Shown: piece by piece, positions 3,591 through 45,898 of the stretch | How positions within the stretch are numbered: the first letter of the stretch is position 1 | Layout: each line of letters opens with the position of its first letter | From: Neolewinella lacunae | Lineage (GTDB): Bacteria > Bacteroidota > Bacteroidia > Chitinophagales > Saprospiraceae | Length of the DNA stretch: 64,000 nt | Reading direction: 5' to 3' | Assembly (NCBI RefSeq): GCF_014349155.1 | Contig: NZ_JACSIT010000069.1 | Span: 1-64,000 of the forward strand | Program-made: the position numbers and the translations under genes | Notes under the pieces: generated by a model | What the model saw: the letters and a program-made list of their open reading frames with translations, nothing else | Databases searched by the model: none | Told to the model about the DNA's origin: nothing

Positions 3591-3720
3591 GATTGAAAAT
3601 GATGGACCTTTTTTGAGCCATTGGGTTTTTGCCTGCTGCGCAGACTTTTTTTGAACCAATAAGGCAGTAAGGGCAATGAGGGGCACTAACCCCTGCCGGG
3701 GTCAGGGAGAAGGAGTCGAC

Positions 3721-3799
3721 CTTTATTCCTTTCCCCTTTACTCCTTTCCCCCTTTACTCCTTTCCCCCTTTACTCCTTTCCCCCCTTACTCCCTTACTC
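3721..3799 (+). repeat. Pyrimidine tandem repeat, unit about CTTTACTCCTTTCCCC
   Basis: Four to five imperfect units of 15-17 bp made only of C, T and one A per half. A similar stretch occurs at 45764-45820. It ends just upstream of the saccharopine dehydrogenase promoter. Strand-asymmetric pyrimidine tracts can form non-B DNA; here the role is unknown. Confidence 0.75.
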
Positions 3800-3809
3800 A
3801 GCGGCGCAG

Positions 3810-3839: not shown

Positions 3840-5174
3840 ATGTCTGCAAGAATACTCATTATTGGTGCCGGACGCTCTTCGTCGGCGCTGATCAATTACG
3901 CGCTGCAAAAAAGTACGGAACTCGGCTGGTCGGTGACCGTTGCTGATGCCGACCCCTCGGCGGCTGCGGCTAAAATTAAAGACCACCCCCGGGGGCACGC
4001 TGCCTGGCTGGACGTGACGAAGACGAACGACCGCCGGGACCTCATTGACCGGGCCGACATTGTCGTTTCCCTCCTCCCCGCACACCTGCACATTGAGGTG
4101 GCACAGGACTGCATCCGCCTCAAAAAGCACCTCATCACGGCCAGTTACGTCAGCCAGGAACTCTACCGGCTGGGCGACGAGGCCCGCAACCGCGAGTTGA
4201 TTTTCATGGGCGAGATGGGCCTCGACCCCGGCATTGACCACATGACGGCGATGCAGCGGATCAACGAAATCCGGGAAAAGGGCGGGAAGATCACGGCATT
4301 TTATTCCTTCACCGGCGGCCTGGTGGCACCGGAGAACAACGACAACCCCTGGGGCTATAAATTCACCTGGAACCCCCGCAACGTCGTACTGGCGGGCCAG
4401 GGTACCGCCCAGTACCTCTACAACGGCAAGCTCAAGTTTCTGCCCTACCAGCGCCTGTTCCGGACGACCTGGGACGTAGAGGTGCCGGGCCTGGGCAAGT
4501 TCGAGGCCTACGCCAACCGCGATAGCCTCCTCTACCGCCACCAGTATGGCTTGCACGATATCCCCACCATCCTGCGCGGCACCCTCCGCTACCCCGGCTT
4601 CTGCGCCGCCTGGAGCGCCCTGGTGCGCATCGGCCTGACCAACGCCGACTTCCCGATTCTGGACAGCGACAAGATCACCTATCACGAGCTAATGGAGGCC
4701 CTCGCACCTTCGGGCCCCGGCTCGGTCAGGGACCGCATCGCGCAGATGCTCAAAATCGACGTCAATGGCGAAGCCATGGAGCGCCTCAACTGGCTCGGGC
4801 TCTTCCGCAAGAAAAAGATCAACCTGCCCGACGCCACCCCGGCCCTGATCCTGGAAGACCTCCTCCTGGAAAAGTGGAAACTGGGCCCGAAAGACAAAGA
4901 CCTCATCGTGATGCAGCACCAGATCGAATACGAGCTGGACGGCAAAAAATACCGTGACGTTTCCAACCTGACGATGAAGGGCGAGAACGCAGAAGACACA
5001 GCCATGTCGCGCCTGGTTGGCTTGCCGATGGGCATCTTCACCCGCCTCATCAGCCAGGGCATGATCAAAGCTACGGGCGTCCACATCCCCACCATGCGGG
5101 AGGTGTACGAACCGGTTTTGGAAGAAATGAAGGAGTATGGGATGGAGTTGACCCACGAGACCCAGCTCATTTAA
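3840..5174 (+). CDS. Saccharopine dehydrogenase (LYS9-like)
   Basis: NAD(P)-dependent saccharopine dehydrogenase, 444 aa, of the LYS9/bifunctional-enzyme C-half type. Family knowledge: it interconverts saccharopine with glutamate and aminoadipate semialdehyde. The N-terminal Rossmann motif is ILIIGAGRSSSALI (residues 5-18), followed by VTVADADPS. The region GLDPGIDHMTAM (near 130) and TFSGG-like SFTGGLVAPENNDNPWGYKF are characteristic of the family. In Bacteroidota this enzyme is usually linked to lysine breakdown. Glutaryl-CoA dehydrogenase (9.3 kb) and ETF (49-51 kb) in the same window fit that route (inference). The direction of reaction cannot be read from sequence. Confidence 0.88.
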   Translation: MSARILIIGAGRSSSALINYALQKSTELGWSVTVADADPSAAAAKIKDHPRGHAAWLDVTKTNDRRDLIDRADIVVSLLPAHLHIEVAQDCIRLKKHLITASYVSQELYRLGDEARNRELIFMGEMGLDPGIDHMTAMQRINEIREKGGKITAFYSFTGGLVAPENNDNPWGYKFTWNPRNVVLAGQGTAQYLYNGKLKFLPYQRLFRTTWDVEVPGLGKFEAYANRDSLLYRHQYGLHDIPTILRGTLRYPGFCAAWSALVRIGLTNADFPILDSDKITYHELMEALAPSGPGSVRDRIAQMLKIDVNGEAMERLNWLGLFRKKKINLPDATPALILEDLLLEKWKLGPKDKDLIVMQHQIEYELDGKKYRDVSNLTMKGENAEDTAMSRLVGLPMGIFTRLISQGMIKATGVHIPTMREVYEPVLEEMKEYGMELTHETQLI

Positions 5175-5177
5175 GGG

Positions 5178-5380
5178 GAGGTTGAGCCCTTGCAATAATC
5201 ACAAATAATTGGTCTTCAATAGCCTTTAGGAGGCAGAGGACTATAGTTCTGTAGTTTTGTAGTTCTGTAGTGGACAATACCTTACTACCGAACTATAAAA
5301 CTACAGTACTAAAAAACCATTGCGATCTAAGCATCTGAAAATCAGCGAATATCTACGTCGCATACCTCCAACCTGACGTT
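5178..5380 (+). repeat. ~200-bp intergenic repeat, copy A
   Basis: Begins GAGGTTGAGCCCTTGCAAT and ends CAACCTGACGTT. It shares long blocks with 37521-37696 (same strand) and 26447-26741 (opposite strand): TTGAGCCCTTGCAAT, CACAA(A/C)TAATTGGTCTTCAA, GTAGTTTTGTAGTTC, GTAGTGGACAAT, TGCGATCTAAGC and TGAAAATCAGCGAATA. The middle contains an imperfect hairpin between TAGTTTTGTAGTTCTGTAGT and ACTACCGAACTATAAAACTA. It lies directly after the stop of the saccharopine dehydrogenase gene, so it could act as a terminator. Confidence 0.8.
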
Positions 5381-25544: not shown

Positions 25545-26333
25545 TTACACGAAATAGCGAACGGGGTTGGTTATCCGTTCCGTGCAAAGGACCGCAAAGG
25601 TAGTGAATTTCTCAGTTAACAACTCCGCAAGTAATTGAGTTGTAAACTGTTCGCTTTCGTAATGGCCAATATCGCAGATGACAATCTCCCCGTCGGCGTC
25701 GAAAAACTCGTGGTACTTGTAGTCGGCCGTCACAAAAACCTGGGCACCCGCGCTTTTGGCCGTTTCCAGCAGGAAGCCTCCCGCGCCGCCGCAGAGGGCT
25801 ACGGTGGCGACGGCACGGCCCAACAGGGCGGTGTGTTTGACTACGGGTGCCTCCATTTTGGCTTTCAGGTGGGCCAGGAAGGCCGTCTCGTCCATGGGCC
25901 CGGGCAGTTCCCCGACCATGCCGGAACCGACGGTGCCGTCTTCGCTTTTGGGGGCCAGGACGCGGAGGTTTTGCAGGCCCAGGCGCTGGGCGATGCGTTC
26001 GTTCACGCCCCGGTGACGGACGTTATCGAGGTTGGTATGGATCGCGTAGATGGCCACGCCTTCCCGGATGGCCCGGATGACGGTCCGCTCCACGTAGTTG
26101 CTGCCGTTGAAGCGCTTTAGCCCCCGGAAAACGATGGGGTGGTGGGCCACCACCAGGTTGCAGCCCCGGGCCTTGGCTTCCAGAATGATCTCTTCGGTGC
26201 AGTCCAGGCTGGTCAGCACCCCCGTCACCTCCGTGGCCGGGTATCCCACGATGAGGCCAGCATTATCGTACCCCTCCTGGAGGTGGGTGGGCGCGATGGA
26301 TTCCAGGTAGTCGGTTATCTCCTTAATCGTCAT
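25545..26333 (-). CDS. Nif3-like dinuclear metal centre protein
   Basis: YbgI/Nif3 family, 262 aa. Metal-ligand motifs: VVAHHPIVFRG (near residue 61), IYAIHTNLDNVRHRGVN (near 98) and ICDIGHYESEQF (near 222), all present. The family is often called GTP cyclohydrolase 1 type 2, but its real substrate is unknown. The length is the short form without the ~100-residue insert found in many Bacteroidota homologues. A perfect TACCTTTG box (25595-25602, minus strand) lies inside the 3' end and could give the downstream zinc-ribbon gene its own promoter. Confidence 0.88.
   Translation of the reverse strand: MTIKEITDYLESIAPTHLQEGYDNAGLIVGYPATEVTGVLTSLDCTEEIILEAKARGCNLVVAHHPIVFRGLKRFNGSNYVERTVIRAIREGVAIYAIHTNLDNVRHRGVNERIAQRLGLQNLRVLAPKSEDGTVGSGMVGELPGPMDETAFLAHLKAKMEAPVVKHTALLGRAVATVALCGGAGGFLLETAKSAGAQVFVTADYKYHEFFDADGEIVICDIGHYESEQFTTQLLAELLTEKFTTFAVLCTERITNPVRYFV
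25595..25602 (-). promoter_or_regulatory. -7 box TACCTTTG inside the Nif3-like gene
   Basis: Perfect TAnnTTTG on the minus strand, 90 nt before the start of the zinc-ribbon gene and within the upstream coding sequence. Confidence 0.35.
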
Positions 26334-26386: not shown

Positions 26387-26446
26387 AAAGTACGGGATAA
26401 AGAAGCAGTGACTGGCCACCGCCGCCGGGAAAAATACCCTATCCTA

Positions 26447-26741
26447 ACGTCAGGTTGGGGGTATGCAACGTAGCTATTCGCTGATTTTCAGGCCTTAGAG
26501 CTTGTCTAAAATTTTTAAGAACTGATAATCAATGACTTATGGTTCTGGCTAGACAAAAAATTGCGCGCATAGTGGACTACGTAAGCCATTTTTTGTGACG
26601 CCAGGTTCATAAGTGCTTGGTTATCAGGAAATAAAAATTTAGACAAGCTCTTAGATCGCAATGGTTTTGCAGTTCGTGGGGTATTGTCCACTACCGTACT
26701 ACAGAACTACAGCTATTTGTGAATTTCGCCAGGGTTCAACC
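26447..26741 (-). repeat. ~200-bp intergenic repeat, copy B, interrupted by a MITE
   Basis: Reverse-strand copy of the element at 5178-5380 and 37521-37696. Shared blocks on either side of the MITE are AACGTCAGGTTGGGGGTATG, GCTGATTTTCAG and TTAGATCGCAATGGTTTTG, TATTGTCCACTACCGTACT. Removing the insertion and one TTA restores the arrangement of copy A. Confidence 0.8.
26498..26650. mobile_element. 153-bp MITE, TSD TTA (IS5/IS1031-type ends)
   Basis: Ends GAGCTTGTCTAAA and TTTAGACAAGCTC are perfect inverted repeats, and imperfect pairing extends about 45 bp inward (GATAATCAATGACTTATG against CTTATGAACC...); the centre is also palindromic, so the whole element can fold into a hairpin. TTA at 26495-26497 and 26651-26653 is a 3-bp target duplication, as made by IS1031-group IS5 elements. 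It has no coding capacity and would need a transposase elsewhere. Confidence 0.8.
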
Positions 26742-26742
26742 A

Positions 26743-27243
26743 TTATTCTAACCCCGAGCTGCTCATCCGCTCGATGATGCCCGTGGAGCTGTGTCCCGTG
26801 AGGAAGGGCAAGGTAGTAACTTCACCCCCCCATCCGATCACTTCCCGGTAGCCAACGATGTCTTCTACCTGGTAGTCTCCGCCCTTTACGAGTACGTCTG
26901 GCCGCAAAAATTTAATGAGCTCCAGAGGAGTATCTGTGTCGAAGGCGATTACGCCATCCACGAAGAAGAGACTGGCCAGGAGTTGCATCCGGGCCGCGAG
27001 TGGCATAATCGGCCGGCTCTCTCCCTTGAGCCCTTTCACGCTGGCGTCGGAATTTACGCCGACGATGAGCCGTTGGCCGAGGGCGGCAGCCTGGGCCAGG
27101 TAGGTCAGGTGCCCCGGGTGAATGAGGTCAAAAACGCCATTGGTGAAAACGGTGCGCTGGGAATAGGTGCGCCAACCGCAGCGGCGGCGGCTCAGGTCTT
27201 CGAGGGAAAGCAGCTTATCCGCTACCAGTTCGAGTTCGGTCAT
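26743..27243 (-). CDS. Heptose-1-phosphate adenylyltransferase-like nucleotidyltransferase (RfaE domain II)
   Basis: Cytidylyltransferase-like enzyme of 166 aa, matching the C-terminal (adenylyltransferase) domain of HldE/RfaE, which makes ADP-heptose for lipopolysaccharide. The nucleotide-binding motif is VFTNGVFDLIHPGHLTYL with HPGH (near residue 43), followed by IVGVNSDASVKGLKGESRP and the closing GHSSTGIIERM (T/H-S-S-T-x-I-I). The stand-alone form is common in Bacteroidota. A near-consensus -7 box sits 6 nt before the ATG (27250-27257, one mismatch). Confidence 0.88.
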   Translation of the reverse strand: MTELELVADKLLSLEDLSRRRCGWRTYSQRTVFTNGVFDLIHPGHLTYLAQAAALGQRLIVGVNSDASVKGLKGESRPIMPLAARMQLLASLFFVDGVIAFDTDTPLELIKFLRPDVLVKGGDYQVEDIVGYREVIGWGGEVTTLPFLTGHSSTGIIERMSSSGLE

Positions 27244-37511: not shown

Positions 37512-37520
37512 GCTTAACAA

Positions 37521-37696
37521 GAGGTTGAGCCCTTGCAATGATCACAACTAATTGGTCTTCAACTGCTTTTAGAAGGCAGTACTGTAGTTTTGTAGTTCGG
37601 TAGTGGACCATGCCCCACTACCGAACCAACAAACCCCTGCGATCTGATCAGCTGAAAATCAGCGAATAGCTACGTTGCATATCCCAACCCGACGTT
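37521..37696 (+). repeat. ~200-bp intergenic repeat, copy C
   Basis: Same-strand copy of 5178-5380, slightly shorter in the middle. It fills the convergent gap between the TPR/SH3 gene and the DUF4097 gene, starting 10 bp after a stop codon like copy A. Confidence 0.8.
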
Positions 37697-45571: not shown

Positions 45572-45898
45572 GGCAGGTCAAACGGTTGGCAACGAGACTG
45601 TTCATATTTGAATGTCTACACTTTACGGACTAAAACGAAAACGTCGGGCTTCACCCGACGCTACCCAAGCGGCCCCTCCAGGGCCGGCAGGGGCTTTGTG
45701 GCCCCCTTCCCTACTTAGTCCATCTTCGTGTCCTTAGTGGTTCAAAAAAGACCTGCGCAGCAGGGTCCCTCCTTTCCCCCTTTATCCCCTTACTCCTTTC
45801 CCCCCTTTACTCCCTTCCCCAACGCAGGGAAGCCTCCCTTCCGCGTAACGAAAGGGAGGCTTCCCGAAAACGATCAAACCCAAGGGGTAAAGCGTGGG
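45572..45898. other. Intergenic region with palindromes and pyrimidine repeat
   Basis: 327 bp. Contains the palindrome GTCGGGCTTCACCCGAC (45641-45657), CTTCGTGTCCTTAGTGGTTC (45727-45746, the unfilled target of the 27430 MITE), pyrimidine units related to 3721-3799, and a long hairpin at 45827-45865. No gene seen. Confidence 0.6.
45827..45865 (-). terminator. Long hairpin after rpsT
   Basis: Perfect 14-bp stem GGGAAGCCTCCCTT/AAGGGAGGCTTCCC with an 11-nt loop, 34 bp beyond the rpsT stop. No U run follows, so its action as terminator is inferred from position. Confidence 0.6.

Follow-up and report, generated by a model that had tools for sequence, protein, structure and literature searches.

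The 153-bp fold-back element at positions 26498..26650 of the window (the whole 64,000-nt stretch of DNA analyzed here) is probably an IS5-type MITE that was moved in trans, is nested in a MITE with IS982-type ends, and carries a folded core largely independent of its ends. The nesting of one MITE in another is confirmed, and would not be remarkable by itself. The common view of MITEs is that each is a leftover of a single IS, restricted to one lineage and with a meaningless inside. In this family, at a median interior identity of 38% (36 elements), two bacterial groups have retained the length, the fold, and certain unpaired residues; as far as our searches reach, the combination of a narrow length, a conserved fold, and changeable ends is new. 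If true, this would mean that a non-coding element can switch transposase while retaining a functional interior.

The element, whose + strand is set by the structure model R1 described below, starts with the 13-bp terminal inverted repeat GAGCTTGTCTAAA (26498..26510, + strand) and ends with its perfect inverse (26638..26650, − strand), with a TTA target duplication on the left (26495..26497) and on the right (26651..26653). These coordinates are as given in the preliminary description of this DNA, which had also claimed that the MITE folds end to end. As single-stranded DNA it indeed does so, at −36.9 kcal/mol (z = −9.2), whereas 200 shuffles of the sequence have a mean of −12.9 kcal/mol and none of them folds as well. 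The apical stem-loop region of the conserved core lies at 26567..26581 (+ strand). The flanking genes, both on the − strand, belong to the DUF34/NIF3 family (25545..26333) and to the cytidylyltransferase-like family (26743..27243), the latter presumably of the type named rfaE2/hldE. The element thus has the features of a bacterial MITE, being short and multicopy, with inverted ends, a duplication, and no transposase.

A genome search for other copies, suggested with the preliminary description, retrieved 29 near-complete places in the assembly (5.8 Mb, 154 contigs) in which 148 or more of the 153 MITE positions match, and partial copies besides; some longer copies of ~170-175 bp hold an extra stretch of ~21 bp. 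The flanking 3-mers are identical in 25 of the 29 copies (the ends of three, L016, L020, and L024, were placed by hand for this count), against a mean of 13.6 and a maximum of 22 when flanks are paired at random, and the left flank is TTA or TAA in all 29. By DNA similarity among 59 other relatives, nearly full-length relatives of the MITE with 72-81% identity were found in three genomes of the same genus (G010, G013, and G005), and two genomes (G029 and G057) gave one 29-bp match each and nothing longer. One MITE copy of the genome (G000:C66:42898-43272; L032 899-1273) is split in turn by an inverted-repeat element, CAGCAATGCTCAGTTTAG..CTAAACTGAGCATTGCTG, which is flanked by the 9-bp duplication CTACGTAAG. 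Elsewhere (G000:C73:107944-107956; L037 3445-3457), a single 13-base end, one mismatch from that of the MITE, adjoins a full MITE from which it is separated by one TTA.

The repeat into which the MITE is inserted was said in the preliminary description to be ~200 bp long, split here, and intact near 5178. This holds, with the extent corrected to approximately 26446-26748 and the interrupted copy recognized as shortened, since it measures 147 bp without the insertion vs 168-214 bp in 25 measured copies. Its left part (26446..26494, + strand) carries the IS982-type end AACGTCAGGTTGGGGG, and its right part (26654..26748, + strand) has a degenerate outer end that runs into the 3' end of the adjacent gene. 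Excision of 26498-26650 together with one TTA rejoins the repeat, as had been claimed: the local alignment score rises from 102 to 151 against the reverse complement of the uninterrupted copy (5173..5380, − strand; flanks agreeing at 1 of 5 positions) and from 78 to 145 against that of a third copy in the window (37516..37696, − strand; flanks agreeing at 4 of 5).

The repeat occurs at more than these three places: the copy at 5178 used as a query gave at least 71 stretches from the best 40 of 98 candidates, in a count that takes both strands of one place separately. Thirty loci of this repeat were fetched, 5 of which have no measurable end pair. In 18 of the 25 measurable copies the flanks agree at 4 or 5 of 5 positions, with a mean agreement of 3.52 vs 2.14 for shuffled flanks (maximum 2.92). 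The repeat has the ends AACGTSAGGTTG, to which those of ISs in the same-genus genome G010 correspond (TTAACGTGAGGTTGGGGG at L088/L094), and the protein at L088 is an IS982-family transposase (NF033520, 194.9 bits, cut-off 130); no IS982 parent was found among the loci checked in the genome under study. With a 5-bp target duplication and ends shared with IS982 elements, the host repeat is itself a MITE. It is the older of the two: identity to the query is 70-86% for the 29 other copies fetched, compared with at least 95% for 16 of the 29 MITE copies, the window copy included.

The transposase that recognizes the MITE ends was sought in relatives. We searched 199 genomes of the taxonomic family for the end pattern preceded by TWA, with the pattern written backwards as a control, and found it in 81. 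Since the control also matched once or twice in 50 genomes, single matches say little; at least five matches occur in 34 of the 199 genomes, against a control maximum of two. In genome G192, paired ends bound an 873-bp element coding for a 262-aa protein, which is an IS5-family transposase (NF033580, 192.9 bits, cut-off 110; also PF13340 and PF01609). The family profiles were run on this protein only, and other transposases were found by similarity to it, with matches in 11 of 21 chosen genomes. Five of the nine transposase loci examined (G192, two copies in G017, G135, and G149) are enclosed by paired MITE-type ends 858-886 bp apart, and four of these five have identical TWA flanks. G017, which is of the same genus, holds two 886-bp ISs with the ends GAGCATGTCTAAAA and GAGCGTGTCTAAAAATT and TTA/TTA flanks, one of them with an uninterrupted frame. 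The MITE shares its ends and its target duplication with these autonomous IS5-family elements of the NF033580 type.

The preliminary description had proposed to search by the ends for a parent IS, and had implied an IS1031/IS5-type transposase in this genome. The assignment to the IS5 family stands, on the paired ends found in relatives, including G017 (the subgroup being, we presume, IS1031/IS427), but the presence in the genome does not: its assembly has no match to the 262-aa transposase and none to PF13586 or PF13359. Among the 61 end-like 13-mers of the genome (at most one mismatch; 4 places for the backwards pattern) no pair faces each other at the distance of an IS, and all 61 are MITE copies, single remnants, or chance. 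No paired MITE-type ends were found around the 12 PF01609 loci scanned in the genome, nor any transposase around four single ends (L031, L035, L036, and L037) in ORF lists examined by eye. Multicopy elements with a 547-aa transposase were rejected as the parent, as their ends, GGGGCCGTCTAAAAAG, resemble those of the MITE only partly. Because many ISs are truncated where one of the 154 contigs ends, and as a draft assembly may be missing collapsed IS copies, absence of the parent is likely rather than proven. For an element to count as a MITE, its transposase need not be present in the same genome. Separately, a 464-aa frame at 536-1096 of the window resembles a transposase, with a PF01609 match that stays under the cut-off, and the same score recurs in eight places of the genome.

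From these results we propose that an IS5-family transposase of the NF033580 type would recognize the ends and move the MITE in trans, duplicating TTA or TAA at the target, and that the MITE of the window would in this way have landed inside the older, IS982-ended one. It would belong to a group of elements of ~153-162 bp whose folded core depends little on the end sequences.

The extent of this group was examined by scanning named genomes for two ends 115-145 bases apart, which gave at least 114 stretches, 80 of which were taken as loci. We take 56 of them to be from Bacteroidota; 21 are labelled Clostridia, 7 of these Lachnospiraceae (Roseburia, Blautia, Anaerobutyricum, and similar labels being assumed to denote Clostridia), and the remaining three are labelled Gammaproteobacteria, Myxococcales, and plain "bacterium". 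Although 141-171 bp were allowed, 58 of the 80 loci, several of which come from one genome, measure 159-161 bp and 12 measure 154-157 bp; after thinning to less than 85% identity, 37 of 46 elements are 158-162 bp long. As a control without a length limit, we considered the 36 facing end pairs among the matches listed for 12 genomes: 20 of these span 159-162 bp, 3 span 858-873 bp, and 8 span 27-39 bp. For the flanks, the pattern fixed the right one to TWA and loci were assigned to types from the initial bases of the end. Identical 3-bp flanks occur in 42 of 59 Bacteroidota-type loci and in 1 of 21 Lachnospiraceae-type loci (the Myxococcales one included), and 18 of these 21 have TA in common.

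Shorter and longer forms were also seen. The palindromes of 27-39 bp (G149 L341-L346, G060 L353, and G192 L354) are barely more than two facing IS5-type ends and in 6 of 8 cases are preceded by TTA and followed by TAA; as these flanks are inverted and not direct, they may not be products of transposition. Versions of 182-306 bp with extra sequence in the arms occur in G164 (L351 and L352) and G149 (L340), and the arm insert of those from G164 contains a CCTGCCTGCGGCAGGCAGG-like hairpin.

A common fold underlies the family. The central 50 bases served to orient the elements, which were then thinned to 46; the 36 of these with 158-162 bp (L224 being left out) were used for an unfitted alignment and for strand tests. 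Six of the 80 loci (L202, L210, L239, L244, L251, and L261) had been set aside by eye because their center was judged unrelated. This was too strict, since the structure model later matched L261, L210, L251, and L239 (77.2, 56.6, 50.0, and 43.8 bits, respectively; no match for L244). MAFFT with default settings blurred the apical stem, which was resolved by a high gap cost and by the structure model; an alignment mixing strands and mini-elements was excluded from the counts. Both pairing tests lean towards structure, because one alignment was fitted to it and the other supplied its own. In the unfitted alignment (36 elements, high gap cost), the consensus comprises 56 pairs, and 76.9% of the cells at interior pairs do pair, vs 53.1% after shuffling (maximum 56.2%) and 42-56% after sliding. 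In the structure-fitted one, which has 44 distinct rows, the paired fraction of cells is 89.6% vs 62.3% for shuffles, both sides have changed in 51 of 54 pairs, and covariation is 0.708 vs 0.216 shuffled and 0.102-0.197 slid. For this second alignment, none of 500 shuffles attains the observed value on any measure, as is characteristic of a conserved structure.

The covariance model R1 was built from 26 hand-picked elements of these 36. It found the window MITE, which was outside the training set, at 65.1 bits (E 2.6e-17) on the + strand vs 42.5 bits on the − strand; the ends alone contribute ~34 bits, as judged from a 29-bp element made of little else. At an E-value of 0.01, R1 matches 60 of 78 loci, and the other 18 are L244 and 17 that had been fetched by a single-end pattern. 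Several unpaired residues are common to the Bacteroidota-type rows (35, one labelled Gammaproteobacteria) and the Lachnospiraceae-type rows (10), such as an A in column 123 (0.89 and 0.80, respectively), a G in column 144 (0.80 and 0.90), and an A in column 153 (0.82 and 0.90). Other unpaired residues differ between the two groups. In the window and 18 loci, no element matched an Rfam family at its gathering score, and a search by E-value of five loci, part of L212, and a further ten gave only sub-threshold matches on the elements. Clostridiales-1 RNA (RF01699), considered as the identity of the Lachnospiraceae-type element, was discarded, its match in L212 being a separate neighbour at 726-887.

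The same core was also found between other ends. Searching the phylum with R1 under strict filters (E 1e-6) gave matches in at least 11 of 296 genomes, some of them spanning the interior only. This is a lower bound, as the best nine or fewer candidates were scored per genome; the genome under study, with at least 29 known copies, gave 8 matches. Core elements with other ends measure about 158-165 bp. The core lies between ATACGAATTACATT ends in G128 (all 5 places read), between ATACCAATTTAG-like ends in G430 (1 of 4 places passing a 12-of-14 test, the rest by eye), between GAACTSGTTTAAAC ends in G338, between GAGCCTGTCGGAC ends with CTAG flanks in G459, and between GAAACTGTCTGG ends with TTA flanks in G451. 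The genome under study itself has a second type of 158 bp with GACTTGTCTTGC ends (C123:6904-7061; L312/L330), an example of the elements that a sequence search misses and the structure model finds. Several of these end types could have arisen by gradual drift, since the ends are still alike (GA..TGTY); those of G128 and G430 do not have this resemblance. The second element type of the genome apparently lies just behind a putative tRNA-like sequence.

The two strands of the core are not equivalent. When the 36 elements are oriented by their center, folding as RNA favours the + strand over the − strand in all 36, and this is still so in 36 of 36 for the arms without ends and center (34 of 36 by z-score), in 35 of 36 for arms disjoint from the orienting center, and in 31 of 36 for the outer arms. 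DNA energies favour the + strand in 34 of 36. Among 17 further elements, 16 are stronger on + and one (L317) folds better on −; this comprises 8 of 8 oriented by the center and 8 of 9 oriented by the model, the latter figure not being independent, as the model scores pairing itself. Pairs predicted from both strands include 79 G.U vs 37 A.C, where composition alone leads one to expect 0.137 and 0.094, respectively. Because composition gives part of the G.U excess and DNA energies are asymmetric in the same direction, these figures do not single out a role as RNA. The asymmetry suggests selection on one folded single strand, either RNA or ssDNA. The main doubt comes from shared ancestry, which could carry the asymmetry and some of the pair changes without present selection. 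Most likely, the core would work in single-stranded, folded form with a fixed polarity (+ strand), and its fold would serve the spread or toleration of the element itself and not the neighbouring genes. Such a fold, if confirmed, would also offer a testable reason for the narrow size of ~160 bp.

A more tentative reading, which we regard as possible though somewhat doubtful, goes further: the ~160-bp core would be an ancient selfish folded nucleic acid and not the remnant of any single transposon, and would have gained different ends and, with them, different transposases. It would extend over Bacteroidota, Lachnospiraceae, and other Clostridia, with the fold as a working part of a non-coding mobile element. 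Another account takes the elements for ordinary palindromic MITEs whose complementarity is maintained by arm-to-arm conversion or by template switching in replication, without selection on the fold. In long fold-back elements one arm can serve to correct the other, and in this family the length is kept along with the pairing. Yet conversion should erase internal loops, whereas certain unpaired positions have been retained in both groups, and it predicts no fixed stronger strand. We consider conversion unlikely as the explanation.

That the element is kept as a terminator, attenuator, or mRNA stabilizer for its effect on neighbouring genes would fit its strong fold and the finding that none of the 29 copies of the genome lies inside a called ORF. 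The arrangement of the adjacent genes looks random, however, with 18 tandem, 6 tail-to-tail, and 5 head-to-head cases around these 29 copies. The 55 Bacteroidota-type loci comprise 26 tandem, 13 head-to-head, 10 tail-to-tail, 4 inside, and 2 at edges, and the 17 Lachnospiraceae-type loci 6 tandem, 4 tail-to-tail, 3 head-to-head, and 4 inside (counts from a crude ORF caller, with 8 of the 80 loci omitted as too near the locus end). The absence of a preferred arrangement speaks against a role for the neighbours. We consider this reading highly improbable, and rejected a terminator or 3'-UTR element for want of such a bias. An internal deletion derivative of one IS, meaningless inside, is hardly credible. 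Such derivatives do exist, as a 275-bp element with a transposase remnant (G135:C163) demonstrates, but in the present family elements whose ends differ have their interior in common, and R1 detected no core inside the ISs of L146, L168, L170, L171, and L178: a core match at L146:1132-1287 is outside the IS, and otherwise there was 10.8 bits (E 0.33) at an IS end. Our preferred reading, an IS5-type MITE with a folded core that depends little on its ends, has some results against it: the search of the assembly for a transposase of this type gave no match, R1 reached few genomes of the phylum under strict filters, L317 folds better on the − strand, and the flanks of the Lachnospiraceae-type loci are not 3-bp duplications.

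Several known systems resemble parts of this picture. ERIC sequences and the miniature insertion sequences of Neisseria are short, dispersed, MITE-like palindromes that can fold as RNA, and differ from the window MITE in sequence, ends, and hosts; we know of no conserved core with exchanged ends in either of them. Tourist MITEs of the PIF-Harbinger group, likened here by description, share the TWA target duplication, the short fold-back form, and movement in trans, but are eukaryotic. In Porphyromonas gingivalis, MITE464/MITEPgRS and BrickBuilt have IS5-family ends and no transposase, and MITE239 is reported inside BrickBuilt (PMC4596501), so that these elements are like the window MITE in their ends, their lack of a transposase, and their nesting. 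Their printed ends differ from GAGCTTGTCTAAA, and the part of the report available describes no folded core that crosses phyla, no narrow length, and no change of ends (PMC4596501). For the host repeat, the closest parallel by description is the lineage-specific IS982-derived MITE of Cardinium, which, according to the accessible part of the source, is likely kept by a parent of the IS982 family (PMC9769881). A literature search at the level of titles and the first lines of abstracts, covering few subscription journals, returned no description of such a folded ~160-bp family.

The window contains further repeats. A dispersed GGGCGCGGCCGCAGGTGC-like motif is present in at least eight copies (10681, 16099, 26371, 33265, 38590, 43382, 50980, and 59238) and also occurs in inverse orientation. 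Arrays of a CTCCTTTCCCCCTTTA-like unit are found at 3709-3808 and 45753-45828, and the segment 40758-41173 holds two 165-bp direct repeats with 95% identity, 251 bp apart, together with an inverted repeat.
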